From contig WELB01000008.1 of the NCBI GenBank assembly GCA_009602725.1, positions 1,077,051 through 1,108,795 of the forward strand: a stretch of 31,745 nt of DNA, read 5' to 3'. Below, one piece after another: positions 5,756-31,745 of this stretch. The position numbers and the translations under genes were made by a program. Source of the stretch: Spirogloea muscicola (lineage: Eukaryota; Streptophyta; Zygnematophyceae; Spirogloeales; Spirogloeaceae). The first letter of the stretch is position 1. Each line of letters begins with the position of its first letter. The notes under the pieces were generated by a model, which was not told where the DNA came from, made no database searches, and worked only from the letters and a program-made list of their open reading frames with translations.

Positions 5756-6120
5756 CTGAAGGGGTCCCGCGGCTGCGCCGGCGCCGCCCGGCGGCGGCGG
5801 CGGCGGCGGGCGAGCCCGGTGGCGTTTCGAAACGGCGCAACGGCCGGGTCAACGGAGGGGAGCGACCGGCGCCGGTTGCGACCGGTTTGGATCGGGTCGA
5901 ACCAACCGGCACCGGTGGGGAGCCAGGCCCGGTTGAACATTCATCCGCCCACCCAGCTCAACGCCGAAATCTCTCGTGGTGAGCCACGTGGGACACCAGT
6001 TGCTATGGGCTTGACTGCTGCAGGTCAATGGCAGTCAGCTCCAGCGCCAGGCACGTAAGCCGCACGACAATCACAAACGACACCAGAAGCAAGAAAGTGG
6101 CTCTCCCAATGTCAATTCTT
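5756..6120. other. GC-rich stretch with CCGG-type repeat block
   Basis: The part from about 5820 to 5945 is dense in ACCGGC, ACCGGT and GGTCG words and resembles blocks at about 11363-11490, 16908-16960 and 17187-17235. It lies where the 5' exon of the coiled-coil gene would be expected, so that exon may have been displaced or lost. No coding exon is supported here. Confidence 0.45.
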
Positions 6121-6175
6121 TCTGGGCTGGCTTTTCGCAGCCCTTGCCCCCATTAAGAGTGCCACTTCTTCTCTG
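6105..6175 (+). repeat. Type-B hairpin repeat (loop TTTTCG)
   Basis: The hairpin GGGCTGGCTTTTCGCAGCCC spans 6124-6143 and is followed by a tail reading TTGCCCCCATT...GAGTGCCACTTCTT. Further copies are at 6605-6705, 11243-11325 and 21729-21832. These four share the same loop and the same 3' tail, unlike the loops in the hairpins that follow LINE stop codons. Confidence 0.8.
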
Positions 6176-6232
6176 CGAAGGGGCCTGAAGAAGCTGTGTC
6201 AGGACGGGGCGAGAACGCAGCGAGCCAGCCGA

Positions 6233-6420
6233 CTTCAACGCCGCTGGCTCGTGGGCTCAGGTATACCGGATGCGCCTCTCTGTATCCCTGCAGCGGTCCA
6301 TGGCCCACGCTCTGCATCTGCGAGCTGGCCGTGCTCTCGCTGCGGGCTCTGGCTTTCGTCAGGGTGATAGCTTCCCGGCAGCTAGACTGTCGGATCTGAG
6401 GCTCCTCACATGTTAATTAC
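6233..6420 (+). mobile_element. LINE 3'-end fragment (C-terminus of the RT polyprotein)
   Basis: One plus-strand frame reads the hallmark end of this element family: a VYRMRL-like segment, SLQRSMAHALHLRAGRALAA, an SGFRQGDSFP-like segment, then SDLRLLT before the frame ends near 6413. It matches the intact tails at 9470-9644 and 16870-16606. Only about the last 60 codons remain, so this is a 5'-truncated copy, as is usual for target-primed reverse transcription. The hairpin at 6562-6580 lies about 150 bases downstream. Confidence 0.75.
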
Positions 6421-6540
6421 TGAGTGATCCATCCTCCCCCTGTTTTACCATAGCATCCTCAGGCCCCTTTGTAGCTGCATTCTTTCTTTGTGTGCTTTGG
6501 TTTCTTAGCGCTTCCTCTGGCTTCCTCTGGCCCCCTTCTC

Positions 6541-6860
6541 GTTCTTTGTTCATTCTTTTTTGGGCTGGCTTGTCCAGCCCCTATCCTCAATGGGCGAGCC
6601 CTTTCTTTGTAGCTGCTCACCGCTCTTAGGCCCCTCTGAACCTTTGTAAATTCTTTTTGGGCTGGCTTTTCGCAGCCCTTGCCCCCACTGGGAGTGCCAC
6701 TTCTTCTACACCAGTCCTGAGATAGCGCTTTTGGCCCCTTTCGTAACTTGGCCCCTTCGAACAGAGAAAGGGCTCGCCCATTGAGGATGTGGGTTGGTAC
6801 AGCCAGCCCAATAAAAGTGGCACTCCAAATGGGGGCAAGGTCTGTGATAAGCCAGCCCAA
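6541..6860. repeat. Composite hairpin repeats in head-to-head arrangement
   Basis: A type-A hairpin at 6562-6580 is followed by the phrase CTCAATGGGCGAGCCC, then a type-B hairpin at 6659-6678 with its CCACTTCTT tail. The minus-strand version follows at once: GGGCTCGCCCATTGAGGA at about 6770-6788, a hairpin at 6791-6809 and another half-site near 6850. The whole 6590-6700 composite is nearly identical to 21700-21832. The inverted layout suggests two insertions in opposite orientation rather than one element. Confidence 0.8.
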
Positions 6861-7740
6861 AAAAAGGAATGAACAAAGTACAAGAAGGGGGCTAGGCGAA
6901 GCACTAAGGAAGACGAGCACAAAAACCCTGTCGGGCTTCTTCTGCTTCTCGCAGCCCTTGCACCCGTTGGGCGAGCCACTTCTTTCTTCAAAGGGGGTTG
7001 ATGGCTGTGGAAAAGCCAGCCCTGTCCCACCGCCCCAACCCCCGTTCCCTCCCTCCAACAGCAAGCCACATTCTACCCAACCTACCCCCCCCTCCCACGC
7101 CTTCCCTGTGGCTGCAGCCCTCACGCCGTCGCGAACTCCCTCGGCGCCCACATGCGTTGCAGCGGAGGCCCGTCCCACCATCACCAGCCTCCTCTCTCCC
7201 CTTTTGGCCTGCTGCCGGCCCACAGCTACCCTTCTTGTGCGTGACAATGTTGCAGGATACGCCCTTGAGCTCCCATACCTCCAGGAGACCTGATGCCAAT
7301 GCCGCGCCCGTCAATCAACATGAGATTTTCTCAGTGTCTCTATTGCACTTCTCACACTGATGTGCTATGCTCATGCAGCAATTCTTTGTCGCACCTGCAA
7401 CAGTCAGCATGAAGGAGGCCTCATTGTCTTTCTGCTTGCTTGCTTGGTCAGCACTTTGAAGGAGGGCCAGTTCCACAGATTTACCTTATCCATATCTAGC
7501 ATTCTACACAAAGGACTGGCTGAATGAGGAACAGCCTTACAGATTACAATTGCTCTCGCTCTTGGTGATGACTTAGATTGGCGGAGCTTCGGCGACCATC
7601 ATGTCATAGCTCATGAGCTGACTACATGCTCCAGAACCTGCTCTTGCATAAGTGGCCGTTGATGAGCGCCATAGGTGGTTTGTCAATGTTGAGCAAGCTC
7701 AATCCTCAACAGAGGATCTTCTAACGAGCAGCAAAGGAGC
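6861..7740. other. No gene recognised; C-rich stretch and repeat debris
   Basis: From about 7030 to 7180 the plus strand is strongly C-rich, which opens Pro-rich frames without motifs. The rest shows no protein similarity that I recognise. The right part (about 7310-7740) is ordinary mixed sequence leading into the LINE remnant. Confidence 0.45.
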
Positions 7741-7794
7741 TTGAGGTTCAGCACGATGACGTCCAGCATAGGAAGTCAGCGACCACTAACTGTG

Positions 7795-8346
7795 TCCTCA
7801 TTCACTACGGCGATGGGGCTTTTGCCTCCGGACGACCTCCGGGGACGCGCGCGGCTGCTCTCGGCATCGTCACCCGGGGCGGCAGCTTGGTTGTCTGCCC
7901 TGCCGATTTACGACGCGCTCCGGATGCCGGACGACGCCTTCCGCACGGCTGTGCACCGCCTCCTCGGCCTCCACCCACCCTGCATAAGTGGAGTACAGCA
8001 GTGCGAGTGCGGCGAGCGCAGCCCACACGCGGCATCGTTGGCAGCTCATATGCTCAGGTGCGCAAGGGAGGGGAGCGGACCGGCACACACGACCTGCTCC
8101 GGAGTGCAATGTTCGGCATATTTGTCGAGGCGGTCACACAGTGGCGCTGGAGAGTTCCAGCATCATGCCTCTGACTGCTGGGGCGGATGGCCGCCTCCAC
8201 ACCCGGCGCGCCGATCTCGTCGCCAGCGCGCTCGGCGGGCGGCCACGGCTCATTGCCGACGTGGTCACGACTGACTGCTTGATTTCAGGAGCGCCAAACG
8301 CTCGTCGGAGGCGGCGGGCTATGCAGTCCGCCAAGCGGCGGGCGTA
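7795..8346 (+). pseudogene. LINE polyprotein fragment 1 (CCHC knuckle and endonuclease-type region), frameshifted
   Basis: The frame starting near 7795 reads a TTAMGLLPPDDLRGRARLLS-like segment, then a knuckle region with QCECGER followed by HMLRC (spacing C-x-C-x13-H-x3-C), typical of the C-terminal part of non-LTR retrotransposon products. After about 8060 the reading continues in another frame, through RRADLVASALGG and LIADVVTTD, and stops at 8347. A closely similar segment occurs again at 8780-9260, so this is either a separate truncated copy or a duplication within one element. The frame change means it is not functional. Confidence 0.75.
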
Positions 8347-9644
8347 AAGGAACGGAAGTACTATGCAACCTTCGATGCAGGCATCCTGGCCAGCGCAGCG
8401 GCCCTCGTCCAACACCCGGCCTTCCTGGCGACGCCGGCTGCCGTGCACCAGGCCTCCCTGCCTGTGAGCCGCGGGGGTCTGGGCTGCTGGCCGCTGGCTC
8501 GTGCTTGCCGGGCAGCGCACCTGGGGAGTTGGGCGCAGGTTGCGGCTCCGGTGGCCCAGCTTTTCATCCGGCATGGAAGTCGCCTTCTGGGGCAGGCGGC
8601 GGCGGACGTGGAGACTGGCACGTTGCCCTTCCAAGAGGCTCTCCGCTCAGCCCGGGATGAGCTGCTTGCGGATCACCCAGCCCTGGTGCCACGGGCCGTC
8701 CCGTTCGCGCACCTCGCGCGCACGGCCGACCTCCGGGCCCAAGCTCGCTTCATGGCAGAGGTGGATGCGGCCTCCTTCACCACGGAGATGGGGCTCTTGC
8801 CAGCGGCCGACCTCCGGGGGCGCGCGCGGCTGCTCTCGGCATCCTCACCTGGGGCGGCAGCTTGATTGTCTGCCCTGCCGATCCATGCTGCGCTGCGAAT
8901 GCCCGATGCCGCCTTCCGTACGGCGGTGCACCGCCACCCACCCTGCGTCAGTGGAGTACAGCAGTGTGAGTGCGGGGAGCGCGGTTCAGCGGCGGCATCG
9001 TTGGCAGCTCACATGCTCAGGTGCGCACGGGGCGGGGAGCGGACAGGAACACACGACCGGCTGCGAAGCGCCATGTTTGGAATCTATGTCGAGGCCGGCT
9101 ACACGGTGGCGCTCGTACCAGCATCATGCCTCCGATCGCTGGGGCGGATGGCCGCATCCACATCCGGCGCGCCAATCTCGTCGCCAGCGCGCTCGATGGG
9201 GGGCCTTGGCTCATCGCCGACGTTGTCACGACTGACAGCTTTGTTTCCAGCAGCAGCGCCAAACGCTCGTCCGAGGAGGCGGGCTACGCAGTCCGCCAAG
9301 CGGCGGACGCCAAGGAACGTAAATACGCGGACCACCCGGTGGGCGACGAATTTGTTCCCCTGGCGGTCGACATACACGGGGCCTTTGGCGCAAAGTGGCT
9401 CGACTTGCTTCACCGCCTTGCGCAGCAGGCCGCGGCCCGCCGCCACGGGCAGCAGGGCGAGCAGCCCGGGTCCCTCGCGCAGGTCTTCCGCATGCGCTTG
9501 GCCGTCTCGCTTCAGCGGTCCCTTGCGTTCGCAGTCCACTTGCGCGCAGGCCGAGCTTTGGCAGCGGCCTCCGGCTTCCGTCAGGGCGACGTCTTTCCCC
9601 CGGCTAGCTACTCAGACTTGCATCTCCTGACTAGAGGTCACTGA
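8347..9644 (+). pseudogene. LINE polyprotein C-terminal half, with nonsense codon and frameshift
   Basis: The segment begins with a post-RT motif widespread in non-LTR elements (HQASLPVSRGGLGCWPLA), then an Ala-rich region, GLLPAADLRGRARLL, the CCHC knuckle (QCECGERG...HMLRC), then RRANLVASALDGG, LIADVVTTD and KERKYA, which fit the charged residues of a restriction-like endonuclease, and FVPLAVDIHGAFGAKWLDLL. It ends in SLAQVFRMRLAVSLQRSL, HLRAGRALAAASGFRQGD and SYSDLHLLTRGH before the stop. Damage: TGA at 8863-8865 where the 7.8 kb copy has TGG, and a frame change near 9110-9140. The reverse-transcriptase palm motif (FADD-like) is absent, so this is a 5'-truncated copy. The endonuclease assignment is inferred from motif pattern only. 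Confidence 0.8.
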
Positions 9645-9783
9645 GCGTCCTCTGGCTGATGTCTTAGTCCTAGTCCACAGGCATGGACTGTAGTGTAGTT
9701 CTATTTCGGCATCTCTTTCTTTGGCTTGGGATACTGTCCATTCTTTTCGGGCTGGCTTTGCCAGCCACTCTTCTCTATGGGCG
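9645..9783 (+). mobile_element. LINE 3' UTR with conserved hairpin
   Basis: This is the untranslated tail of the LINE above. The hairpin GGGCTGGCTTTGCCAGCC spans 9749-9766, about 105 bases after the stop, and is followed by CTCTATGGGCGAGCG, the usual phrase of this family. The next LINE fragment starts immediately after that phrase. Confidence 0.75.
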
Positions 9784-10223
9784 AGCGCTTTGTTGATCAT
9801 CCAGTGAGAGACGAGTTTGTCCCACTCGCCGTCGAATTACACGGAGCTTTTGGGACGAAATGGCTTGACCTTCTTCACCGCCTTGCGCGGCGTGCAGTGG
9901 CCCGCCGCCACGGGCAGCAGAGCGAGCAGCCTAGCTTCAATGTCGCCGGCTCCCTCGCTCAAGTCTTCCGGATGCGCTTGGCCGTTTCTTTGCAGCGGTC
10001 CCTTGCCTTCGCGATTCATTTGCGCGCAGGCCGCGCTTTGGCTGCAGCCTCCGGCTTCCGTCAGGGCGACGTCTATCCGCCTGCTAGCTATTCTGATTTG
10101 CATCTCCTGACTAGAGGTTACTAAGAGTCCCCTTGCTGCCGTTTTAGCACTTAGCACCTTGCTTTCTGCACCATCCGGCTCCTTCGGACCTTGTCCATTC
10201 CTTCGGGCTGGCCTCTCACAGCC
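9784..10223 (+). mobile_element. Second LINE 3' end in tandem (ORF tail plus hairpin)
   Basis: An open frame reads FVPLAVELHGAFGTKWLDLL, a VARRHGQQSEQ-like stretch with a few extra residues relative to the preceding copy, SLAQVFRMRLAVSLQRSL, HLRAGRALAAASGFRQGD and SYSDLHLLTRGY, then TAA at about 10122-10124. A hairpin sits at 10205-10223, about 81 bases after the stop. The frame is intact over this piece, so the copy is younger or was simply cut short before any lesion. It lies head-to-tail behind the first copy. Confidence 0.8.
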
Positions 10224-11080
10224 ACCAGTCAGTCTGACCGCGCCTTCTTTAACTGTACCGTAAAGGGCATCCTCAATAATTGTCGCCTTGCGTCGCCGTT
10301 TCCAGCGTCAGCTACTTGCTCTACTGCGCCATAACTCCCGGTGGCGCCGTTCTCCCCTCTAGGAAGCAGATCAACTTCCCCTTCCGTCCGTCTGACAGAG
10401 GAAGCTAGCCTCTCCAGGCATCCGTCAAGCCGGCTTTGCGGCATCAACACTCCAACTATGTGATTATCCCTGCATATGCTGCCTCAGTGCCCTAATGTGT
10501 CCTCCCCTTATGGGGCAGATTGTTGAAGCATGCCCTTAAGAAGGACATGTTGCCACCTCGAAATGCGCACTTTTGCAGATAATGCGCGTTCCTGTCTCTT
10601 GCCTACATGGCCTGCACTGGTCATTTCCTTAGTGCGACGCAGAAAGCAGTATCAGCCAGTCACAATGTGGTGTTATCATCTCGTTGGATGCTGATGGCCC
10701 GGGGATTCGAAGACTAAGTGGGCCAAGGGGCCGCCCTTGTCGGCATCTTGCCGCACTCGTCAGCCCTGTGTCTTGCTGTCTGGCGCAACCAGATCGCAAG
10801 GCCCGCCAGGCAACCAGACTGCGCAGCACGAGTGGCTGCAGCGGCGGCAGTAGGCGCGGGCGACGGTGACGGCAGCAGCGGCAGCAGCGGCGCATCCCCT
10901 AGCGAGCTCGTCCGGAGCTGGAGGCGTGAGGTGAGGAGAGTGTGGCGTCCTCGTGGCCGTCTGGGGCGCTTTCAACGTACCTTTGGCTCTCTGTTCCATG
11001 AGTCAATTCGCCAGCCGGAAGGAGGCCCCCGAGCTAGGCTGATTCTCTGAGGCTTTTGTCCATCTTTGGTTTGTTCCTCT
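10224..11080. other. No gene firmly recognised
   Basis: The plus strand is open from about 10718 to 11050, with an Ala/Gly/Ser-rich middle (a GCAGC-type repeat near 10840-10890) followed by an Arg-rich part. There is no family motif. It may be a degenerate element ORF or chance openness; I would not annotate it as a gene. Confidence 0.35.
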
Positions 11081-11335
11081 TATCTGGGCTGGCCAATCAC
11101 AGCCATCGCCTTTTACTGGCAAAGTCTTCGGCCTTTTGTCCTCTCTAGTTGGCGCTTCCGTGCGGACGGTTGTCCCTTCCTCGGCTGGCCCTTTACAGCC
11201 ACCGCCCTGCGGACAAGCACACGGGCACTCTTCCATGGAGTAGCTGCTCACCGCTCTTAGGCCTTTGTCAAATCTTTTTGGGCTGGCTTTTCGCAGCCCC
11301 CATTGGGAGTGCCACTTCTTTCTTCCATGGAGGGC
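11081..11335 (+). repeat. Cluster of three hairpin repeats
   Basis: Hairpins lie at 11086-11104 and 11183-11200, and a type-B one at 11280-11298 preceded by AGCTGCTCACCGCTCTTAGG and followed by CATTGGGAGTGCCACTTCTT. The CGGACAAGCACACGGGCACT phrase at about 11211-11230 recurs in the 97-base tandem repeat at 21331. Confidence 0.75.
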
Positions 11336-11362
11336 CTGCCGGTGAGCGTGGGCTGGGCGAAG

Positions 11363-11490
11363 AGTGGTCCGCAACCGGCGCCAGTCGCGACCGGCGGGCG
11401 GCGCGCCCGGTCGGGTGTCGGCACACGGGCGCCGGGGTCCCCGACCGGGCCCGGTCGCGGGGCGCCGCTCCCGTCCCGGTTCACGGCTAG
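11363..11490. repeat. CCGG-rich block upstream of DUF3419 copy 1
   Basis: Dense in GACCGG, CCCGGTCG and GGCGCC. The closest relatives are 17187-17235 upstream of copy 2 and 16908-16960. It is followed by a shared phrase, AGGCCTCTCCTCTGCCTGCC, that also precedes copy 2 and lies near 22331 in the copy 3 flank. It belongs to the duplicated unit. Confidence 0.6.
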
Positions 11491-11639
11491 GCCTCTCCTC
11501 TGCCTGCCAAGTGGCGGGGGAGCTGGGTAAACACCCCCCCCCCCCTCCGGGTCAGGGCCAGCCGACCAGCGCTGCCGGCGGGACCCCCCTCCTCCCTCCC
11601 TCCTCCCTCCCTCCTCCCTCCCTCCTCCCCCTGCGGCCG

Positions 11640-11646
11640 TATAAAA
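11640..11646 (+). promoter_or_regulatory. TATA box of DUF3419 copy 1
   Basis: TATAAAA lies 126 bases before the ATG at 11772. Downstream come CACTTGACATCCCGCCGCTC and CATTCTCCTGCTCCCTC, which are conserved upstream of copies 2 and 3. At the aligned place, copy 2 has CACTAAGAG and copy 3 has TGATAAGAG, so only copy 1 keeps a canonical box. The box is seen directly; promoter function is inferred. Confidence 0.55.
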
Positions 11647-11771
11647 GTAGCCGCTGCTCTCTCACTTGACATCCCGCCGCTCATTCTCCTGCTCCCTCCG
11701 CGCCAACGAGCTCAGCGACGACGCCCGCTCGCCCCGTGCCGCCGCAGCCGCCTCCCCGCGCGCTCTCCGCC

Positions 11772-14652
11772 ATGGCTCCCGACGGCGGTGCCGCCGACGG
11801 CGCGCCGCGGCCGGCGGTCTACTCGTGCCTGCCTCCCTGCAAGAAGGTGTACGTGGAGTACGAGGGCCTGCCGGGCCCCGGCTGGCTGTCCGACACGCCT
11901 TTCGGCATCAACAACGAGGACTACCGCGTCGAGCTGCTCTGCATCGACCATCTGCTCGCCAGGCCTGCTCCGACGCGCCCTTGGCTCAGCCGATTCTTTC
12001 ATATCAGCAGCCGCTTTCTCGCCCTGACCTCTGCTGCGCTCGCGGTGCTGGGTCCAATGTTCACTGGACATTGAGTTGGTCTACATTGCGCTCGCGACTC
12101 GCGCGGCAGCTGACGAGCTGCACGCGGCCCGAAACTGTCAAGCAGGATGAAAGCCAGAGGAGAGCCAGAGCGGAAGCTGCGGGTGCTCGCCATTACAGGA
12201 GGGTCTGACAACGTGCTCTCTATGCTCACCCTCGGCGACAAGGTCGAAAGCGTGGATGCCGTGGACCTGAACCCCGCCCAGAACCACCTGCTCCTCCTGA
12301 AGCAGGTGAGAGCCTTGCTCAGGTCTATATTCTCTCTGCATTCTACAAGATACCATTCAGCTTCCTGTCCATTCATGCTGGCATCCTCCTCATCCTTCTC
12401 GACTGCACTAATTGAGCACCTGCTCGCAATTGCCAGGCTGCAGTCAAGGTTCTGGAGAGAAGAGGCGAAGTCGTAAAGTTCTTGGGGCTAGATGGCGATC
12501 ACAGCAACGCGGCGGCTGGCACTCGCATCGCCACCCACAAGGCGATCGTGCGCGACCAGCTGCCTCCTGAGACTCAGGTCGGTGTACGGGCGGCAGCTCG
12601 CAACTGCCAAAGTTGTTTCCTACACGATGTCAAGAGCCACGAGATTAGGGCCTAGCTGCTGCTATGCGTTTATGAGGAGCCAATTACAAACATCCTGAGC
12701 GGCTCCTTGGGGATGACTGTGCAGAGCTTCTGGGACACACTCGTCCAAAAGAATATTGCTTATGGTGCCTCGACATGCTCGCGATTCGAGAAAATGTACA
12801 GCATCATCAGGAAGAACCTGAGTGGCAATGGCTTTGACATGGATGCGCTCTTCCGGAAGGACAAAGCTGGGTTCATTGCAGGGGCTGTGGCCAGGGGCTG
12901 GGGCTCTTCACGTCAGGAGATTGATGAAGCTCTGATTGCATGCCAGCCGGATGAGATCTTCTATAACTCCTTCGAAGTGAGTTGGCAATTCAGCACAGCT
13001 ACCTGCTTTCGCTTGCGCAGAAGTCAAGTGTCTGTGGGCACCAGCAACTCAGGACATTGTTCATTGCTTTTGGTAGCCACGCTAGCCTCTCCATTGCGCA
13101 AGCCAGCAATTAAGAGCAGCTTCTATAATTGTTACCGCCCTGCTTCCAGATCAAGCGTGCTGCTTATGCACAGATTTCAGGATAACCAGATCTTCTATAG
13201 CGTCCCAAGCTCACTTTCGATGCTGCTGTGATGAATCTTCGTAACGATCACAGCCGTCAACTTGACATGACGAAATATTGTCCTTTTCGTGTCTTGCATC
13301 AGCTGGGCCGAATGAAGCCCCAGCTGCTGGAGTACTTCGAGCGCAACAAGGACGCTTACAGAGCCGTTTTTGCAGGCGAGCGCCCTCCTGCAGCTGTCAG
13401 ACATCTTCTTTCAAGTTCCATGCACGTGCATTGTGATATGAAGCAATCAAGCCCAGCATCTGCTTCCACATCTTACTTGCTGTTTATTAGCAAGCAGGTG
13501 TGATGAATCAACTAGAGGAGGACCCAGAGAAGTACGAGGACAACTTCATCATGAGTGTTCAATACAAAGGGTCCATGCCAACAGATGACTCCTCTTCAAG
13601 CTTGCCACTGTACTTTAGCGACGAGGGGATCAAGGCAAGCAACAAGTTGTTTCCTTCCATCACTTTTTCTCTAAACAGATTCATGGCTGCATTGACTGTT
13701 TATCTCAGTTGACCTCTTCTTTGCTTTTCCTGACTACGATGAATCTGCTGCATGTATGTCGCTAATCTCCAGCAATGATGATCACATTCTCAACATCATG
13801 ATGGAAAAAAGTAGTAATCCTCATTTACCAAATGGATTGTCTACAAATGCAGACCTTGAAAGCAGAGTCCCCCCCGAGCTTACGTGTACACGTCGGGAAC
13901 GTGGTTGACCTCGCCACCATTTTGGCAAAAAAGGTGAGAAGCCTTAGCCTTGCAGCAGACTTAGCATGCTTGCTCTCTTCAGTCCTTCCGAATCATCTCT
14001 TGATCACCTGATCAACAGGGAAAAGTGGCACTCGGAGGTGTGTCTTCTTTAGCTTGCTGATTCAAGCTTTAGATCACATCTAGCGAGATTGTGATGGGTG
14101 TAGCTGCCCATCTCCAGCAATAGCGAACAACACAGGAAGCTTGCGGAGCATGAATCACATGTGTACCACCTGCTTGTTTGATATTTGGACAGGCCGGGCG
14201 GGGCTTTGATTTGATAACTTTGTCCAACATTGGTGACTGGCTGGACGAGGAAAATCTCACCAGCACCATAAAAAGCATCGAATATGCCCTAGCTCCTGGA
14301 GGTGATGCAAGCACATCAAGCCTCGGCCATGCCTCAAAAAGCACATGATCGTAGTCAACCATGCCTTGACATGTTTATCATCACAAGCCTCCCATTGATG
14401 AAGGTGGCCGGTGAGTAAATCGCGCTTGCATGTAGCCTTGAGGCCAAAACTGTCTTTTAATCAAAGCTATTGGCCGCTGGGCATTGGACAGGCTTGCTCC
14501 TCCACCGAAGAGCTCTTGGCAACCAGCGGCGGAGCTTTGAGGGGGTCCTTGACATTGATGAGGAACTGGTCTCAAGGCTTCCATTCGAGGACCACAGCCA
14601 TGTGTTCTGGGGCCGCCCAGAGTCTGTCTTTGCTGGAAGCAAGCGAAGCTAG
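11772..14652 (+). CDS. DUF3419 family protein, BtaA-related, copy 1 (apparently intact)
   Basis: Exons spliced by eye: 11772-11962, 12146-12305, 12437-12577, 12725-12976, 13303-13375, 13498-13634, 13853-13933, 14019-14039, 14193-14301, 14492-14652. They total 1326 bases, or 441 residues, ending at TAG. The family is shown by INNEDYRVELLCID near residue 50, LAITGGSDNVLSML and VDAVDLNPAQNHLLLLK (SAM-type glycine loop and acidic strand), FWDTLVQKNIAYGASTCSRF, YFSDEGIK, RGFDLITLSNIGDWLDEE, APGG and a C-terminal FEGVLDIDEELVSRL. Family members include BtaA, which moves the 3-amino-3-carboxypropyl group of SAM onto diacylglycerol in betaine-lipid synthesis; a similar reaction here is inference, since no BtaB-like methyltransferase domain is attached. 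Three introns (after exons 1, 5 and 6) start with GC instead of GT. The ATG follows a conserved CCGCC context and is shared by all three copies. Confidence 0.75.
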
Positions 14653-15477
14653 ACTAAGCGGCTGCCGTCAGTATGCTGCAAGAAACCTTTATACATGCAA
14701 GGGCCGAAGCAAATCTCGATCGTCTTTGTGCACCTTGTCCATTTTTAATAAGCTGGCAGTCACACTCACAGCCAAAGCCTCGATGAAGGAGCCACTTGCC
14801 CATGTCCCTTCTTGACTTATATTTTGCATTCATTTTTCATGGCCTCCCACGGCTGTCCCTTCTTTGAATAAAGCATTAACTCTATTTTCAGAGTCTTTGC
14901 GGGTCTTGTTGCCTCCTCACAGTATATCTCCGCTCACATTGGACACTGTCACAAGTCTCGCAGAGACTGCTCGCGCCATGCTGCAAGTCAGTCTGCCCCT
15001 TGACTTATCATACACCTGGCAATAGATGACCAGAACGTCATCTACTAGTCTGCGTCAGGATGACCGGCACAAACTGCACAGGGTATATATCTACGTAGCT
15101 CATCTGCATGAGGGTTGATGGACGTAGGGTCATGGAAGGGATGACGTGAAATGTGTGCAGCCTCAAGGAGATTGAGCGTGGGAGGGCACTAGGGCCAAAC
15201 ATAGTGAGTCCCTTTGGGCTGTGTGTATTGTCGTCGTGAGCCTACTTCCTTTCAGTATCGCTTCTCTTGCACGCTGTCACGCTGTTACCTTAGCCACCTT
15301 AGGATAGTGCTTCGATTTGTGAAGCCCCAGGTGCACTACCCTTTTGCCTGAACAGTGTATTGGCTAAGCTTGGCCAACCTTTCATCTCATGCGCCACGCG
15401 CGCCTTCGCTTGCAGAGAGCTGCTTCTTTGGTGGCCCAGCACGCTAACGTATGGTTAGAGCCTGGAAGAAAGATGCC
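14653..15477. other. 3' flank of DUF3419 copy 1; no further gene
   Basis: Homology with the flank of copy 2 (20526-20995) continues to about 15070, ending near the phrases AACGTCATC and GACCGGCAC. An AATAAA-like word occurs near 14868 (GAATAAAGC) and could serve polyadenylation. From about 15070 to 15477 I recognise no gene. Confidence 0.5.
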
Positions 15478-15720
15478 TCCAAGAGAGGGCCTCGGCTGGA
15501 AGAGGCGAGCCCAGAGAAAAGAATGAACAAAGTTCGAAGAGGCCAAGGGAAAGCGCTAAAGCACACACGAATCAAGCAGCTACGAAGAGAGAGCTACGAA
15601 ACACTCAGTAACCCCTGCTAAGCAGCCGCACAGCTTGCCCATGTGCTTGGTCACAGAGGCCTTTCCACAAAGAAGAAGTGAGCGCTCATAGAGAATAGGG
15701 GCTGGGAAAGGCCAGCCCCC
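15478..15720 (-). mobile_element. LINE tail and hairpin fragments
   Basis: On the minus strand the family's last codons (RLLSRGY and stop) lie at about 15630-15605, followed by the 3' UTR to near 15500 with GTTCATTCTTTTCT and GGGCTCGCC. To the right, a separate hairpin GGGGCTGGGAAAGGCCAGCC is at 15698-15719. Only the tail of the ORF remains. Confidence 0.65.
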
Positions 15721-15782
15721 AAAATAGAAATTGTCAAGGGGCCAGGGGAGGGTCTAAAGCTAGCAATATGGAGTCATCTCTG

Positions 15783-16030
15783 TCTCCTTCCAACGCTCCC
15801 TGGCTCACGCCGTGCACTTGCGGGCAGGCCGTGCTAGGCCTGCTGCTTCTGGGTCTCGCCGGGGTGCCTCCATGCCAGCTGCAAGTTACTTCCCACTTGC
15901 TGCTGCTAATCCGGGGTTACTAAACTTCCCTCCGCTGCAATCTCGTGCAGAGCTGTGTGTCTTAGGCGCCCTTCGGCACTTCGGACTTTGTCAATTTCTT
16001 CTGGGCTGGCCTTTCCCAGCCACCTTTTCA
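15783..16030 (+). mobile_element. LINE 3'-end fragment with hairpin
   Basis: A plus-strand frame reads an SFQRSLAHAVHLRAGRARPA-like segment, then drifts, but the exact GGGGTTACTAA ending is present at about 15913-15923. The hairpin is at 16003-16022, about 80 bases after the stop. The reading frame is degenerate in the last 30 codons. Confidence 0.65.
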
Positions 16031-16039
16031 TGGTGGGTG

Positions 16040-16225
16040 AGGTTTTTCCATCTGACAAAGGCCAAAGAGCCGACAGGCGCTATAAGCCCACAGCTCTGCA
16101 AAGTGGCTACAGCGAGCACAGTAAGTCAGAAGCCGCAAATCGGAGTAACACGCAGCTGGAAACGAGTCACCCCGACAGAATTCATAAGTAACAGCCAGAG
16201 CACGGCCTGCCCGCAAGGGCACGGC
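16040..16225 (-). mobile_element. LINE C-terminal fragment, minus strand
   Basis: The minus-strand frame reads LRAGRALAVTYEFCRGDSFP and AACYSDLRLLT before losing the pattern. It lies nested between plus-strand fragments, showing that insertions occurred in both orientations. Confidence 0.55.
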
Positions 16226-16254
16226 GTGAGCCTCTCTCTCTTACCAGGAGACTA

Positions 16255-16400
16255 GTTTCTCCGACCTGCGGCAGCTTAGTAGGGGTTACTAAGTAGTAGG
16301 TGGCTACTTGCTTTTGTGTGTGCTTTAGCCCTTTCCCTGGCCCCTTTGAACTTTGTTAATTATCATTTCTGGGCTGGCCTCTCCCAGCCACCTCTCTCCC
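16255..16400 (+). mobile_element. LINE tail (last codons) and hairpin
   Basis: Only the family's terminal segment remains (TCCGACCTGCGGCAGCTTAG, then GGGGTTACTAA). A hairpin is at 16371-16389, about 80 bases after the stop codon at 16290. Confidence 0.65.
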
Positions 16401-16439
16401 AAACACCGCCTTCTCATGGAAGCGTCTCTCACTCTCTTC

Positions 16440-16870
16440 CATAAAGAAGAAAGAGCTCGCCCATTGAGGATAGGGGCTGGAACAGCCAGCCCAAAAAAGA
16501 ATGAGCAGAGTACAAGAAGCCCAAGAAGAAGGGGGCCAGGCGAAGCACTAAGGCGAAGCACTAAGAAAGAAGCACACAAGAAGAAACAAAGCAGCTACTA
16601 ACTACTCAGTAACCCCTGCTAAGCAGTCGCAGGTCAGAGAGGCTATGTTCCTGGAAGGACGTCCCCTGGCCAGAGCCAGAGGCAGCAGCGAGGGCTCGGC
16701 CGGCACGCAGGTGCAGCGCACGGGCCATTGACCTCTGCAGCGAGACGGCCAGGCGCATGCGATACACCTGGGCGAGCGACCCGGCTGCAGGAAAGTCCAC
16801 CGGCTCCCCATGGAAGCGGCGAGCGACGGCGTGACGGGCAAGCTGGTGGAGCAGTTCGAGCCACCATAAA
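16440..16870 (-). mobile_element. LINE 3' end, minus strand, ORF tail open, with 3' UTR
   Basis: On the minus strand from about 16870 the frame reads LWWLELLHQLARHAVARRF, SLAQVYRMRLAVSLQRSM, ARALHLRAGRALAAASGSGQ and SLSDLRLLSRGY, ending at 16606. The 3' UTR continues to the hairpin at 16492-16473, about 114 bases past the stop, then the CCTCAATGGGCGAGC phrase. It is nearly identical to the plus-strand copy at 22745-23060, so these two are recent relatives. Confidence 0.75.
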
Positions 16871-16899
16871 GGACCTTCTGGTGAGCGCGGCCTGGGCGA

Positions 16900-17090
16900 C
16901 GGGGGGGTCCGCAACCGGCACCAATCGCGACCGGGGGACGGTGTGCCCGGTCGGGCGGCGGCGCGCCTTGCATTGCACCGCCGCGCTGGTCGCGCCCTTG
17001 CAGCAGCCTCTGGCTTGCGCAGCGGGGTTGCTCTTCCTCCCCTCAGCTCATCTATCTGACTTTTACTGCTGACACGGGGGTATTGAAACC
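16900..17090 (+). mobile_element. GC-rich LINE tail variant
   Basis: A CCGG-rich block (16908-16960) is joined to a frame reading HRRAGRALAAASGLRSGVAL and LPPLSS...SDFLLLT. The same block and tail occur at 22600-22736. The tail differs from the main family in the GLRSGVALPPLSS stretch and may mark a subfamily; the copy at 22600 ends with GGGTACTAA. Confidence 0.6.
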
Positions 17091-17696
17091 CTGTCTGCCT
17101 AGCCTTTGGCTCCGTCATGAACACCTGTATGCATCTGGCTGGCATTTCACAGCCGATTCTTTCATATCAGCAGCCGCTTCTCCTGGGGGGGCACCCGACA
17201 CCGGGCCCGGTCGCGGGGCGCCGCTCCCGTTGCGGCCCCTTTTTGGATTCACGACTAGTTAGGCCTCTCGCCTGCCAAGTGGCCAGGAAGCTGGGTAACA
17301 CCTCCCCCACCCACACTCTCACCCCCCCCGGTAAGCCCGAGCAGCGCTGCCGGCAGGCAACCCCCCTCCCTCCTCACCCCTGGCCCCCCGGCCTGCAGTC
17401 GTGAAACACCCCCCCTTCAGAGAACACTGGAGACCTGCTTGGACTGCCTTGGATCCACTGTCTTTTACACAGCTCATCGCCCCGTTAGCAGGACTTGCAA
17501 GGGAGGCTTGGATAGGCCTCCCTTTCGTTGGCCTCCCTTCCATCTCATGCGCGCCTTTCTCCCCCCCTCCCCTCCCCCCTTCCGCCATCACTAAGAGCAG
17601 CCACTTGTATCTCACTTACATCCCGCCGCCCGTTCTCCTGCTCCCTCTCGGCTCGCCCCGCGCCGCCGCAGCAGCCGTCGCCCCGCGCGCTCCGCC
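17091..17696 (+). promoter_or_regulatory. 5' flank of DUF3419 copy 2, no TATA at the copy 1 position
   Basis: The region shares its CCGG block, the AGGCCTCTCGCCTGCCAAGT phrase, a C-rich tract and the final CACTTACATCCCGCCGCC...TTCTCCTGCTCCCTC with copy 1. Between the C-rich tract and the start region it has about 160 extra bases (roughly 17398-17560), which are also present before copy 3 (23266-23430) but absent before copy 1. Where copy 1 has TATAAAA this copy reads CACTAAGAG. Confidence 0.5.
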
Positions 17697-20525
17697 ATGG
17701 CGCCAGACGTTGGCCCCGCCGACGGCGCGCCGCGGCCGGCGGTCTACTCGTGCCTGCCTTCCTCCAAGAAGGTGTACGTGGACGACGAGGGCCTGCCGGG
17801 CCCCAGCTGGCCGTCCGACACGCCTTTTGGCATCAACAACGAGGACTACCGCGTCGAGCTGCTCTGCATCGACCACCTGCTCGCCAGGCCTGCTCCGCCG
17901 CGCACTTTGCTCTGCCCTGACCTCTGCTGCGCTCGCGGTGCCTGGTCCCGCACATTGTTCACTGGACTTCGAGTTGGTCTACATTGCGCTCGCTTCTCGC
18001 ACGCACCGGATGTTCTGCAGCTGACGAGCTATGGCTGCCCGCAACTGTCAAGCAGGATGAAAGCGAGAGGAGAGCCGGAGCGGAAGCTGCGGTTGCTCGC
18101 CATCACAGGAGGGTCTGACAACGTGCTCTCCATGCTAACCCTCGGCGACAAGGTTGCAAGCGTGGATGCCGTGGACCTGACCCCCGCCCAGAACCACCTG
18201 CTGCTCCTGAAGCAGGTGAGAGCGTTGCTCAGGTCTACATCTTCTCTGCATTGTTATAATGGCTTTGACCAGCCTGTCCAACCATGGTGGCATCCTCCTC
18301 ACAATTGCAATGATTGAGTACCTGCCCGCATATGCCAGGCTGCAGTCAAAATTCTGGAGAGCAGAGGCGAAATCGTACAATTCCTGGGGCTCGATGGCGA
18401 TCACAGCGAAGCGGCGGCTGACACTCGAGTCGCCACCTACAAGGCGAACGTGCGCGACCAGCTGCCTCCTGAGACTCAGGTGGGTTTACGGTCGGCGCTC
18501 GCAGCTGCCAAAGTTGTCTCCAACATGGTGCCAAGGGCCACGAGGATTAGGGCCTAGCTGCTGCTATGTGCTTATGAGGATCCAATTACAAATATCCTTC
18601 CCCGGAGGTGATTGTGCAGAGCTTCTGGGACACACTCATCCAAAAGAATATTGCTTATGGTGCCTCGACATGCTCGCAATTCGAGAAAATGTACAGCATC
18701 ATCAGGAAGAATCTGACTGGCAACGGCTTCGACATGGATGCGCTGTTGCGGAAGGACAAAGCTGGCTTCATTGCGGGCGCAGTGGCCAGGGGCTGGGGCT
18801 CCTCACGTGAGGCGATTGATGAAGCTCTGATTGCCTGCCAGCCGGACGAGATCTTCTACAACTCCTTTGAGGTGAGCGGGCGGATTAGCGCAGCCACCTG
18901 CTTTTGCTTGCTCGAGACTTTTTGTGGGCACCAGTAAAAATCAGGACACTGCTAATTGCTCTTGGTAGCCGCGCTAGTTTCTCCATTGCGTAAGCCAGCA
19001 TGTAAGAGCAGTTCTGGAGTTGTTACCGACCTGCTTCCGAATCAAGCGTGCTATTTCTACACAGATCAACTTCAGGATAGCCGGTATTTTCATAGCATCC
19101 CAAGCTCGCTTCTGCTGCTTCTTGATGGATCTTCATAATCATCACAGCTCGTCAACTTGACACGACGACCCTTCTCGTGTGTTGCATCAGCTGGGCCGAA
19201 TGAAGCCCCAGCTGCTGGAGTACTTCGTAAGGACGCTTACAGAGCCATTCGTGCAGGCGAGCGCCCTCCTGCAGCTGTCAAACATCTTCTCTCAAGTTCC
19301 ATGCACGTGCATTTAATCATGAAGCAATTTGCCCAGCTTCTGCTTCCACATCTCACTTGCTGTCTACGCAAGCAGGTGTGATGAAGCAACTGGAGGAGGA
19401 TCCAGAGAAGTTCGAGGACAACTTCATCATGCGTGTTCAATACAAAGCGTCCATGCCAACAAATGACTCCTCTTCAAGCTTGCCACTGTACTTCAGCGAC
19501 AAGGGGATCAAGGCAAGCAACAAGTTGTCTCCTTCCATCACTTTTCCTCACAACAGAGATTTGGCTGCACTGACTGTGTATCTCAGTTGACCTCTTTCTT
19601 TACTTTTCCCGACTCTGAAGAATCTGCTGCATGTATGTCGCTAATCTCCAGCAATACTGACACATTCTCAACATCCTGATGGAAGGAAGTGTGACCCTTC
19701 ATTAACCAAGTGGATTGTCTACAAAATGCAGGCGTTGAAAGCAGAGTCCCCCCCAAGCTTACGTGTACACGTCGGGAACGTGGTTGACCTCGCCACCATT
19801 TATGCAGAAAAGGTAAGAAGCCTTAGGCTTGCAGCAAACTCAGCAAGCTTGGATTCTCTTCAGTCCTTCCGAATTATCTCTTGCTCACCTGATCAACAGG
19901 GAAAATTGGCACTCGGAGGTGTGTTCTCTTTAGCTTGCAGAGTCAAGCTTTAGATTACATCTAGGGAGACTGTGATGGGTCCTTCTCCAGCAATAGCGAA
20001 CAGCACAGGAAGCTTGCGGAGGCATGAATCATATATATACCACCTGATTGTTGCAATGTGAACAGGCCGGGAGGGGCTTTGATTTGATAACTCTGTCCAA
20101 CATTGGTGACTGGCTGGACGAGGAGAAGCTCACGAGCACCATAAAAAGCATCGAATCTGCCCTAGCTCCTGGAGGTGATGCAAGCACATTGAGCCTCGGC
20201 CATGCCTTGACACGCACATGATATCAGTCAACAATGCCTTGACAGAATCATCATCACAAACTACCAGTAATGAAGGTGCCCGGTGAGTAAACAACGTTTG
20301 CATGTAGCCTTACCGCCAAGAATGGTACTCTCAACAAAGCTATTGGTCGCTGGGTATTGGACAGGCTTGCTCCTCCACCGAAGAGCTCTTGGCAACCAGC
20401 GGCGGAGTTTTGAGGGGGTCCTTGACATTGATGAGGAACTGGTCTCAAGGCTTCCATTCGAAGACCACAGCCATGTCTTCTGGGGCCGCCCAGAGTCTGT
20501 CTTTGCGGGAAGCAAGCGAACCTAA
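17697..20525 (+). pseudogene. DUF3419 family protein, copy 2, with 7-base deletion in exon 5
   Basis: The exon map matches copy 1: 17697-17887, 18056-18215, 18339-18479, 18620-18871, 19191-19256, 19376-19512, 19732-19812, 19900-19920, 20066-20174, 20365-20525 (TAA). All have copy 1 lengths except exon 5, which is 66 instead of 73 bases: after GAGTACTTC the bases GAGCGCAAC are replaced by GT, shifting the frame. The deletion also creates GTAAGG, a good donor, exactly at the break (19227); splicing there to an AAG site at about 19388 would restore frame, so a shortened product is possible. Other changes include MAPDVGPADG at the start and DLTPAQ for DLNPAQ in the SAM-site strand. The GC donors after exons 1, 5 and 6 are kept. 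I call it a probable pseudogene. Confidence 0.65.
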
Positions 20526-21020
20526 GTTAAGCGGCTGCCGTCAGTAGGCTGCAAGGAACCGTTATACATGCAAGGGCCGAAGCGATTCTCGATCTTCTTT
20601 GTGCACCTTGTCCCTGTTTGATAAGCTGGCAGTCACACTCACAGCCAAAGCCTCGATGAAGGAGCCACCTGCCCATATTCCTTCTCGATTGTAATGTGCA
20701 TTCGCTTTTGATGGCCTTCCACGGCTGTCCCCTATTTGAAGAAAAGTTTCTCTTTATTTTCAGAGTTTTTGGGGGTCTTGTTGCCTCCTTATAGTACGTC
20801 TCCGCTCACATTGGCACAGTCACAAGTCTCACAGAGACTGTTCGCGCCATGCTGCAAGTCAATCTGCCCTTTGGTTGCCAACCGTCTGATGATGACCAGC
20901 TACTGGCGGGATGTCATGGAGCGAGTCTGTTCTACACCTAGCAATAGATAACACCGGAACGTCATCCACTTGTTTGCGTTAGGAGGACCGGCACTTTTGC
21001 TCACTTTTATCACTTTGTTC
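20526..21020. other. 3' flank of DUF3419 copy 2
   Basis: Homologous to 14653-15070 downstream of copy 1, with scattered substitutions and indels; the shared part ends near the GGACCGGCAC word at about 20986. No other gene is seen. Confidence 0.55.
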
Positions 21021-21330
21021 ATTCTTCTTTTGGGCTGGCCTCACACAGCCACTGCCCTCTTTTGGAAGCGACTTATCTGAGTTACTGAGCTTTCCGTTGC
21101 GTCGTCTTGTGTCTAGCTGTGTCATTTTTCTTGTAGGCAACTTTTTGGTTCTTTGGATTTTATCCGTTCGTTCTCTGCCAGCCCCTCGTCTTTATGGGCG
21201 CCACTTCCTCTCTCTTATCTTGCAGACACTGTCCCTCTGCCTGTAGCACTTAGTCCCCTGCTTTCTGCGCCATTCGGCTCCTCTTGACCTTGTCCATTCC
21301 TTTTGGGCTGGCTTCTCCCAGCCACCAGTC
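21021..21330 (+). repeat. Hairpin repeats without ORF tails
   Basis: Hairpins at 21032-21050 and 21305-21323 are each preceded by TTCATTCTTCTTTT- or TTGTCCATTCCTTTT-like sequence. No LINE coding tail is visible within 100 bases upstream, so these may be fragments or an independent short element using the same hairpin. Confidence 0.65.
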
Positions 21331-21493
21331 CTAGGCGGACAAGCACATGGGCCACTCTCCTACATGCCTCGCTTTCATGCCATGCGCACCGCGCGCGTTC
21401 TCTGCCTGGTCCTTCCCAGCCACCGCCCTAGGCGGACAAGCACATGGGCCACTCTCCTACATGCCTCGCTTTCATGCCATGCGCACCGCGCGC
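21331..21493 (+). repeat. 97-base tandem duplication
   Basis: The unit starting CTAGGCGGACAAGCACATGG recurs exactly 97 bases later (21428), including CATGCCTCGCTTTCATGCCA and GCGCACCGCGCG. It lies just after a hairpin whose ...CCCAGCCACC end is also repeated, so the duplication includes a hairpin half. Confidence 0.85.
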
Positions 21494-21512
21494 CTTCTCT
21501 CTTCTCTTCTCT

Positions 21513-21840
21513 TGATCCATCCTCCCCCTGTTTTACCATTGCATCCTCAGGCCCCTTTGTAGCCCAGCATCTCTGATCTGCGGCTGCTTAGCAGGGGTTA
21601 CTGAGTGTCTCGTAGCAGCTTTGTTTCTGTTACTTAGCGCTTCCCCTGGCCCCCTTCTCGTACTCTGTTCATTCTTTTTCGGGCTGGTTGTTCCAGCCCC
21701 TATTCTCAATGGGCGAGCACTTTCTCCTTTGTAGCTGCTCACCGCTCTTAGGCCCCTCTGAACCTTTGTGAATTCTTTTTGGGCTGGCTTTTCGCAGCCC
21801 TTGCCCCCATTGGGAGTGCCACTTCTTCTACTCTCGTGGA
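21513..21840 (+). mobile_element. LINE tail plus two-hairpin composite repeat
   Basis: A short piece, TGATCCATCCTCCCCCTGTT, matches 6425-6444. It is followed by the LINE terminal codons (TCTGATCTGCGGCTGCTTAG, GGGTTACTGA; stop at 21602-21604), a type-A hairpin at 21681-21699 (77 bases after the stop), the CTCAATGGGCGAGC phrase and a type-B hairpin at 21781-21800 with the GTGCCACTTCTT tail. The second half is nearly identical to 6590-6705. Confidence 0.75.
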
Positions 21841-22171
21841 ATTACTGAAGAAGAAGAACTGAAGGGCTGCTTCTTCCTCTAATTCTTCATTAATAAGATC
21901 TACATGATATCTGGAATGAGAGGCCAGCCCAAAGGAACGGACAAGGTCTGCAAGGGCCGCATGGCGCAAAAGGCAGGATACTAATTTCTGAGACGTCAGC
22001 AAGTAGGCTCTCAGTAACCTCTGGTCCGCAAAAGCGCCCTGTCAGCCCAGCCTGCGGCTCCATCACTCCCCATATGAACACCCTCTGCATTTCGTTTCTC
22101 TCAAATAAACGAAATACACGAATACACGAAATATCTCCTGCATGCCCCGGCCTGCCGTTGTACCATTGGCA

Positions 22172-22172
<1 letters not shown>
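21841..22172. other. No gene recognised
   Basis: Mixed sequence containing a degraded GCGCCCTGTCAGCCCAGCCT phrase (22032-22051) that resembles one in the copy 2 and copy 3 flanks (about 17086 and 23078). No coding support. Confidence 0.4.
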
Positions 22173-22205
<33 letters not shown>

Positions 22206-22330
22206 TTCGCTCGGCCGCCAAGGGCATGGCGGGCGAGCTGCCGCAGCCGCAGCGCCGCCTGGCGAGGCTGGCTGCCCACCTCGGCGGCGGCGGCGGCGGC
22301 GGGGATGACAGCGGCGGCGGTGGCNCGACT
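22173..22330. repeat. (GGC)n repeats with one undetermined base
   Basis: A GGC run at 22173-22205 is followed by shorter runs near 22284-22323 and an N at 22325. The N marks unresolved sequence in a hard-to-read GC repeat. Ala/Gly/Pro runs in frames through here should not be taken as coding. Confidence 0.9.
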
Positions 22331-22553
22331 AGGCCTCGCCTCTGCCTGCCACGTGGCGAGGAGGCTGGGGAAATAAGAGAGAAGGGCTCGCCCATTCATT
22401 GAGGAATAGCCCTCCCCCTCTCAGCACTTCCTCGGTGCCTTTTGGGTCTTGTATCCTGCTACCGCATGCGAATGTCTATGTCTTTGTCCATGCTTTTCGG
22501 TGGGCGAGCTCTTTCTTTCTTTTCTATGTCCCCCAGCGCTGTCCATTCTTTTT
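22331..22553. other. Displaced upstream block of DUF3419 copy 3
   Basis: CTAGGCCTCGCCTCTGCCTG, followed by a GTGGCGAGGAGGCTGGG-like run, matches the block found just upstream of copies 1 (about 11490) and 2 (about 17258). Here it lies about 1.2 kb from the ATG because LINE fragments sit between it and copy 3. The rest of the stretch shows no gene. Confidence 0.5.
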
Positions 22554-22744
22554 GGGCTGGCTTTGCCAGCCCCTCTTTCTCTATGGGCGAGCCTTCTTCC
22601 CAAGCGACCGGCGCGGCGGCTTGCTTTGCACCGCCGCGCCGGTCGCGCCCTTGCAGCAGCCTCTGGCTTGCGCAGCGGGGTTGCTCTTCCTCCCCTCAGC
22701 TCATCTGACTTCCTACTGCTGACCCGGGGGTACTAAGCTTATGA
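22554..22744 (+). mobile_element. Hairpin and GC-rich LINE tail variant
   Basis: The hairpin at 22554-22573 with the CTATGGGCGAGCC phrase is followed by a frame reading HRRAGRALAAASGLRSGVAL and SDFLLLTRGY, ending at TAA 22734-22736. It is nearly identical to 16960-17075. The next LINE fragment starts within about 10 bases of the stop, replacing the expected 3' UTR. Confidence 0.7.
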
Positions 22745-23060
22745 TAAGAGCCCTTTCTTCTACGTCTCGCTGCAGAGGTCCATGGCCCGTGCGCTGCACC
22801 TGCGTGCTGGCCGAGCCCTTGCTGCTGCCTCTGGCTCTGGCCAGGGGACATACTTCCAGGAGCATAGCCTCTCCGACCTGCGCCTGCTTAGCAGGGGTTA
22901 CTGAGTGGTTAGTAGCTGCTTTGTTTTTTCTTGTGTGCTTGTCATTTCTGCTGCTTCGCCTTAGGGCTTCGCCTGGCTTCCCCCCCCCTCTTCTTGTACT
23001 CTGTTCATTCTTTTTTGGGCTGGCTGTTCCAGCCCATATTCTCAATGGGCGAGCCCTTCT
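22745..23060 (+). mobile_element. LINE 3' end with 3' UTR hairpin
   Basis: The plus-strand frame reads SLQRSMARALHLRAGRALAA, ASGSGQGT and SLSDLRLLSRGY, with stop at 22902-22904. The 3' UTR includes GTACTCTGTTCATTCTTTTT and the hairpin at 23017-23035, about 113 bases after the stop, then CTCAATGGGCGAGCC. It is the plus-strand sister of the minus-strand copy at 16440-16870. Confidence 0.75.
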
Positions 23061-23556
23061 CTTTCTTCTAAGAGCGCCCTGTCTGCCTAGCCTGTGGCTC
23101 CGTCAAGGACACCTGTATGCATCTGGCTGGCTTCCACAGCCGCTCTTTATATTAGCAGCCGCTTTCTCTCTCTCCCCGGTACGCCCGAGCAGTGCTGCCG
23201 GCAGGCAACCCCCCTCCTCCCTCCCTCCTACCTCCCTCCTCACCCCTGGCCCCCGGCCTGCAGTCGTGAAGAACCCCCCCTTCAGAGAACGCTGGAGACC
23301 TGCTTGGACTGCCTTGGATCCACTGTCTCTTACACAGCTCATCGCCCCGTTAGCAGGACTTGAAAGGGAGGCCTGGATAGGCCTCCCTTTCACTGGCCTC
23401 CTTCCATCTCATGCGCACCGCGCGCCGTTCTCCCCTCCCCCCTCCCGCCATTGATAAGAGCAAGCCACTTGTACGTCACTGACATTCCGCCGCCCATTCT
23501 CCTGCCCTCTCTCGGCTCGCCCGCGCCGCCGCAGCCACCACCCCGCGCGCTCCGCC
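23061..23556 (+). promoter_or_regulatory. 5' flank of DUF3419 copy 3
   Basis: Homologous to the proximal flank of copy 2: GCTGCCGGCAGGCAACCCCC, the 160-base segment also seen in copy 2 (here 23266-23430), and the closing CATTCTCCTGC...CGCTCCGCC before the ATG. At the TATA place of copy 1 it reads TGATAAGAG. The sequence left of about 23170 is broken up by the LINE insertion. Confidence 0.5.
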
Positions 23557-24331: not shown

Positions 24332-24472
24332 GTCGGTGTGTGGGCGGCTGCTTGCAACTGCCAAAGCTGGTTCCTACATGAGGCCAAGAGCCACGAAAAT
24401 CAGGACACTAAGATCAGTGCAGATTCTATGTGCTCTCTGAGGAGCCGATCACAACCATCTTGAGCCGCTTGA

Positions 24473-31677: not shown

Positions 31678-31745
<68 letters not shown>
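31678..31745. repeat. 68-base poly-T run at window end
   Basis: A pure T run to the last base, directly adjoining coding-like GC-rich sequence. It could be a genomic homopolymer, a polyA tail of an inserted retrocopy on the minus strand, or an assembly artefact at a contig end. Confidence 0.9.

Follow-up and report, generated by a model that had tools for sequence, protein, structure and literature searches.

A short hairpin recurs in a 31,745-nucleotide (nt) stretch of the genome of Spirogloea muscicola (contig WELB01000008.1, positions 1,077,051 to 1,108,795; hereafter the window, in whose own coordinates all positions are given), regarded as eukaryotic nuclear DNA. The spacers between the tandem gene units of this window contain, on both strands, numerous short and 5'-truncated copies of the C-terminal region of a single kind of protein, and the hairpin, with the common core GGCTG-(7–9 nt loop)-CAGCC and thus a 5-bp stem, is probably a recognition element in the 3' untranslated region (UTR) of related non-long terminal repeat (non-LTR) retrotransposons, resembling long interspersed nuclear elements (LINEs), that is picked by their own reverse transcriptase. 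It is linked to the tails of LINE-like open reading frames (ORFs), is conserved between groups of copies, and stands at a near-constant distance from the 3' end of the element, the 5' truncation of the copies being variable. The element RNA would fold into this hairpin ~28 nt before its 3' end, which in most copies is a short tract of pyrimidines lacking poly(A). By analogy with known LINEs, the reverse transcriptase of the element would most likely bind the GGCUG-(7–9 nt)-CAGCC hairpin and thereby bring the 3' end of the RNA to the nicked target, where target-primed reverse transcription would start as it does in LINEs of the stringent type.

Occurrence of the hairpin

The strict pattern GGGCTGG N3–30 CCAGCC has 16 matches on both strands of the window, corresponding to 10 distinct sites, against a mean of 0.11 and a largest value of 3 in shuffled sequences. 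A loose scan allowing one mismatch, combined with reading of the sequence, yields 26 oriented hairpin places, 22 with an intact core and four with one mismatch, further places of the scan without element flanks having been discarded by eye. The exact core GGCTG N6–9 CAGCC occurs at 23 sites, of which 22 fall within this set of 26, and the remaining one (7518–7536) has no element flanks. The loop itself is constrained, reading G-C-Y-N-N-N-C(-N) in many copies.

All 19 hairpin positions listed in an earlier note on this DNA are present, 18 with an intact core and one (6791, minus strand) with one stem mismatch. Ten of them follow the strict pattern, eight only the core (6124, 6659, 10205, 11086, 11183, 11280, 21032 and 21781), and the copy at 15698 lies on the minus strand, as judged by its flanks. 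Seven places come in addition to this list, at 714–730, 6840–6857, 7003–7021 and 15494–15511 on the minus strand, and at 17137–17154, 21404–21421 and 23125–23141 on the plus strand.

Linkage to open reading frame tails

Tail peptides of the window, used as queries against it, give 13 LINE-like tails (T1 to T13; T1, T7, T10 and T13 on weak or short matches), with stop positions placed by hand. These do not represent 13 independent lineages, the groups of copies named F1 and F4 giving three tails each. A hairpin on the same strand lies within 160 nt of 11 of the 13 tails, compared with a mean of 0.82 and a maximum of 6 in 4450 rotations of the hairpins; when restricted to 5900–23500, 10 of 12 tails have a hairpin against 1.4 by rotation. 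The hairpins of this first control had been chosen with their flanks in view, and the control was repeated on both strands with matches to the exact core alone, giving 11 of 13 tails against a mean of 1.29 and a maximum of 7 (10 of 12 against 2.1 within 5900–23500), T6 being counted there via the palindrome of a converging copy, and T13 being missed owing to a mismatch. Both controls bear out the proposal of the earlier note that the hairpin is a 3' UTR component of a LINE-like element. GGCTGG is also the top 6-mer 3' of the tails (10/13, with the borrowed palindrome of T6 counted, versus 15.6% of window segments), in a count made with two stops misplaced by 1 and 14 nt.

The tails lacking a hairpin in the first control were T6, which has none of its own, and T11, which is not scored because a nested F1 insertion splits it from the hairpin at 23125. 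Once joined, the flanks of this insertion match two uninterrupted relatives, and the nested F1 copy has an apparent target duplication of 4–5 nt, with ~25 nt of additional sequence separating its body from the left flank (all by eye). Measured from the last stop base to the first G of GGCTG, the distances of the 11 linked tails are 51, 66, 78, 80, 81, 82, 94, 106, 114, 115 and 147 nt. Eight such values had been given previously, and they agree with ours to 1 base (to 3 for the loosest), but the range then proposed, about 75–115 bases after the stop, is narrower than the actual spread of 51–147 nt.

More than half of the hairpins (14/26) stand without an ORF tail, and some are ~97 nt apart, as would suit an independent palindromic repeat, either a miniature inverted-repeat transposable element (MITE) or a short interspersed nuclear element (SINE), that adjoins ORF tails by chance. 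The same-strand linkage to tails speaks against such a repeat, as does a covariance model built from 12 tail-linked copies (including 23125, taken across the nested copy), which recovers 10 further copies at E <= 4e-5 (its E-values being rough, from short calibrations). Eight of these have an intact core, one carries a mismatch, and one (21136–21215) has no 5' arm. That a model trained on tail-linked copies finds many tail-less ones is expected of 5'-truncated insertions, and a chance association with an independent repeat appears highly improbable. Possible candidates for a partner SINE with the same tail are short ~97-nt units, although by eye these resemble 3' UTR fragments.

Distance to the 3' end of the element

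Pairwise extension from the hairpin gives a clear downstream match in 27 of 322 pairs, at a score that none of 4817 random pairs attains, and in these 27 pairs homology between copies ends 20–38 nt past CAGCC, with a median of 28 and 52 of 54 ends within 20–35 nt, the pairs having members in common and hence not being independent. The upstream ends of homology are more scattered, with a standard deviation of 12 versus 4 downstream. Under a looser extension many ends again fall in the 20–38 nt range, some being longer where adjoining sequence is duplicated, and upstream runs reach lengths of over 250 nt. A pyrimidine run of at least six terminates 26–38 nt after the hairpin in 21 of 26 copies, and a run of six A within the 60 nt that follow the hairpin was found in none of the 26.

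The position of the hairpin varies less relative to the 3' end than relative to the stop. The "fixed range" of the earlier note accordingly holds with respect to the 3' end of the element, to which the hairpin is nearly constant, and not with respect to the stop codon. A near-fixed 3' end combined with varied upstream ends is what is expected from target-primed copying of an RNA with a fixed 3' end, with variable 5' truncation, and the stem-loop is placed at the 3' end that truncated copies keep, as in the tails of stringent-type LINEs.

The near-constant distance and the lack of poly(A) fit equally well with a hairpin whose role is to form or shield the 3' end of the RNA, comparable to the histone mRNA stem-loop or acting on stability, the enzyme reading only the terminal pyrimidine tract. 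Against this, no histone stem-loop is found among the ten weak Rfam matches obtained to E 10 in 20950–23200 (the only stretch scanned so deeply), and known LINEs use such hairpins for recognition by the reverse transcriptase (PMC4176376). A role limited to forming or protecting the 3' end is considered unlikely compared with recognition by the reverse transcriptase.

Conservation and folding of the stem

Of the 26 copies, 25 were aligned (21404 excluded; alignment A1), and 22 of them, sorted by hand into 12 groups via their flanks, were used to compare groups. Between the 12 groups, identity reaches 98% and 100% in the two core arms, against 64% in the loop, 49% in the upstream flank and 42% in the downstream flank. 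Selection of these copies by their core overstates the identity of the core, a bias that is mostly avoided in the tail-linked set (n = 12), where the core is intact in 11 copies and has one mismatch in the other. When F4 is compared with the other groups, the core arms are 99% and 100% identical, and the flanks only 21% (upstream) and 37% (downstream). The hairpin is kept between diverged groups, and its stem varies less than its loop, the latter as stated in the earlier note.

Is the stem common simply by descent from a recent shared element, without any function? Close relationship or segmental duplication links many of the copies, and covariation is not seen, as this explanation would have it. 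However, the F4 copies keep the core fully within flanks that are as divergent as mentioned above, so that descent alone is disfavoured, and in our view very unlikely. As for the fold itself, the evidence for a predicted stem is solely the complementarity of its two near-invariant arms.

An outer helix around the hairpin was hinted at by three folds (two of F1 copies, one of an F1b copy) that pair TGTYCATT with a downstream AATGGGC or TATGGGC, and by the copy at 21306, which pairs CTTGTCC with GGACAAG. In a swap test on the same 22 copies and 12 groups, cognate arms gave a mean of -6.8 kcal/mol versus -7.5 kcal/mol for swapped arms (p 0.88), and in view of this missing cognate advantage the outer helix was dropped as a general feature.

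Coding remnants and probable class of the element

Two adjoining pieces on the plus strand, both with a broken frame, carry the motifs by which the element can be classified. The first (7795–8361) is a C-terminal piece with LSALP, CxC...H...C, RAD...D and KERKY, and the second (8362–9644), the longest C-terminal copy, contains a linker, a Cys-His knuckle, a region resembling the restriction-like endonuclease (RLE), the tail and the stop. As read from the sequence, the motifs follow in the order LSALP, C-x-C-x12-H-x3-C, RAD-x14-D and KERKY. The KX2KY motif is present in both copies as KERKY (8290–8361 and 9141–9326), and the candidate counterpart of the nuclease PD...D is RAD-x14-D in the copy at 8180, with RAN instead in the copy at 9141. 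Other pieces are a 5'-truncated copy at 9795–10124 (plus), which begins within ~5 nt of the 3' end of the preceding copy, and tails found by the peptide search at 16606–16863 (F1, minus), 22623–22736 (F4, plus) and 22764–22904 (F1, plus), the last being nested in the F4 3' UTR.

In RLE LINEs the knuckle is CX2-3CX7-8HX4C, the catalytic K is the first K of KX2KY, and R2 has KXRINALP (PMC5678591). Like R2 and other RLE LINEs, the Spirogloea element has KX2KY, an ALP motif before the knuckle and a putative C-terminal nuclease region; unlike them, its knuckle, with C, C, H and C in both copies, is spaced CX1CX12HX3C, outside the published spacing. The element is probably an RLE-type LINE, with a good fit for KX2KY and a partial one for the other motifs. 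No rDNA (ribosomal DNA) target was seen, no search aimed at rDNA having been made. The 3' UTR of R2 is a larger structure than the hairpin described here.

Besides this deviant knuckle and the selection of compared copies by their core, several points weigh against recognition of the hairpin by the enzyme of a LINE. The case comes from one locus only. The covariance model trained on tail-linked copies misses the hairpins ending at 6857 and 7021 (both minus strand) and the one at 21404 to E 1, and gives the hairpin at 11087 only E 0.0023 and that at 11183 E 0.17. RNAalifold returns the 5-bp stem with zero compensatory pairs, and in the tail-linked set 98.3% of cells are paired, with 0 changes on both sides of the stem (two misaligned rows of alignment A3 were removed for the structure job). 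Covariation is not demonstrable because the stem hardly varies, and the pairing bias that the earlier note proposed to look for is therefore not found; equally, with so few changes the refuting outcome named there, stem changes free of such a bias, is neither reached nor averted. Folding of 3' UTR pieces, also proposed there, supports the structure in part, with z below -2 in two of six pieces (-2.1 and -2.3) and from -0.1 to -0.7 in the other four, and the piece 10125–10250 is without the hairpin in its minimum-energy fold. In addition, the LINE-like pieces (20 stretches and one read-through) have no Pfam match above chance and no reverse transcriptase domain, the longest copy representing only ~2 kb of the C-terminal end; the read-through has no match to a PDB chain, and no Rfam match in the window reaches the gathering score. 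The label "LINE" hence rests on the motifs and on the behaviour of the element, which is interspersed, 5'-truncated and near-fixed at its 3' end. A structure model of 9129–9641 has a mean predicted local distance difference test (pLDDT) score of 42.4, unusable for the fold. No relatives were found in the viral contigs (by protein, alignment and three DNA patterns), phages or genome contigs searched, and no paper on this element was noticed among the matches listed.

Comparison with known LINE 3' hairpins

A stem-loop in the 3' tail is required for retrotransposition of ZfL2-1 and ZfL2-2, and is likewise reported as required for UnaL2 (PMC4176376), and the Spirogloea element resembles these L2-clade LINEs in having one there. 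In ZfL2, the loop sets specificity and the stem is replaceable (PMC4176376), whereas here the stem is near-invariant between groups and the loop is more variable. UnaL2 also differs in ending with TGTAA repeats (PMC3747384), where the present element ends in a pyrimidine tract. In plants, an L1-clade LINE lineage and its SINEs carry a 3'-end hairpin in a related ~50-nt region, with compensatory changes in the stem, and conserved UCU in the loop and CGAG in the flank (PMC3747384); the hairpin has the same location in our element, but the stem is here the constant part.

Constant stem letters could reflect either reading of the stem by the enzyme or insufficient divergence of the groups in the window. 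A bolder proposal, which we regard as possible though rather doubtful, is that a group of LINE families within one genome uses one near-invariant stem as a handle, the reverse of loop recognition in the L2 clade, in which case every family could have its 3' end copied by a single enzyme, and head-to-tail chains of different families would record template jumps between them. The element belongs to a LINE-like group for which the searches returned no match in Pfam, Rfam or PDB, and would offer a compact and testable putative 3' recognition element. If specificity resides in the stem and not in the loop, this would widen the known template choice by LINE enzymes, and bear on the RNAs mobilised in trans.

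Individual copies and head-to-tail chains

At the 5' side of the window, an F4 hairpin follows tail T1 (stop 796) at 714–730 on the minus strand. On the plus strand, the F2 hairpin at 6125–6142 is preceded by a flank resembling an inverted F2 3' end, which folds back as a long stem (6085–6175); the F1 hairpin at 6563–6579 comes after T2 (stop 6416), and an F2 hairpin (6660–6677) lies head to tail behind it. Three minus-strand places follow, namely an F1 3' end with one stem mismatch (6792–6808), an F2 3' side, also with one mismatch, that the tail-trained model misses (6840–6857), and a place with the same core and without the usual flanks (7003–7021), which may represent either a strongly truncated copy or a chance match. 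Further plus-strand copies are those of F1b at 9750–9766 (after T3, stop 9644), of F3a at 10206–10223 (after T4, stop 10124), a copy without ORF tail at 11087–11104, that of F3b at 11183–11200, weak in the same model, and that of F2 at 11281–11298.

Between 15 and 18 kb, the minus strand bears a hairpin with one stem mismatch at 15494–15511 (after T13, stop 15605), one of the strict pattern at 15700–15717, and an F1 hairpin at 16475–16491 (after T8, stop 16606), and the plus strand those at 16004–16021 (after T5, stop 15923), 16372–16389 (after T7, stop 16292) and 17137–17154 (F4, after T9, stop 17086). All later copies are on the plus strand. The one at 21033–21050 has no ORF tail; an F3b hairpin of the strict pattern (21306–21323) is followed by a damaged tandem copy with one mismatch (21404–21421); and an F1 hairpin (21682–21698, after T10, stop 21604) has an F2 hairpin head to tail behind it (21782–21799), this pair being a duplicate of 6563/6660. 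The last ones are an F1b hairpin of the strict pattern (22555–22571), an F1 hairpin after T12 (23018–23034, stop 22904), and the F4 hairpin (23125–23141) that the nested F1 copy separates from T11 (stop 22736).

Copies of different groups adjoin head to tail on the same strand, with gaps of ~0–10 nt as judged by eye, at junctions 9790/9795, 6607, 11233/11239, 22597/22610 and 6815/6811 (minus strand). These junctions could result from template jumping, or from insertion into older 3' ends. Consecutive hairpins of the same strand are 96–100 nt apart at 6563/6660, 11087/11183/11281, 21306/21404 and 21682/21782, the pair 21306/21404 being a tandem duplicate. The stretches 6425–6709 and 21513–21831 represent a duplicated segment with F1 and F2 3' ends, one copy of which is apparently short of ~70 nt between short GTAGC repeats (by eye).

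Surrounding gene units and window ends

The tandem gene unit is present three times, at ~12.0–15.0, 17.9–20.9 and 23.8–24.4 kb of the window (span 12014–24396), in copies that are 84–90% alike. Both gene-unit stretches that were scanned match DUF3419 (Pfam PF11899; E 5.6e-8 and 7.8e-8), a BtaA-like family. The dinoflagellate spliced leader has no exact match and one poor partial match in the window, which has no bearing on the host. The window starts with a GCC repeat (1–44) and ends with 68 T (31678–31745), as is typical of assemblies breaking at repeats. Weak matches to models of the element occur at 14711–14805 (E 0.0025) and 20584–20678 (E 1.3), one per tandem gene-unit copy, and possibly derive from an old copy of the element that predates the gene duplication.

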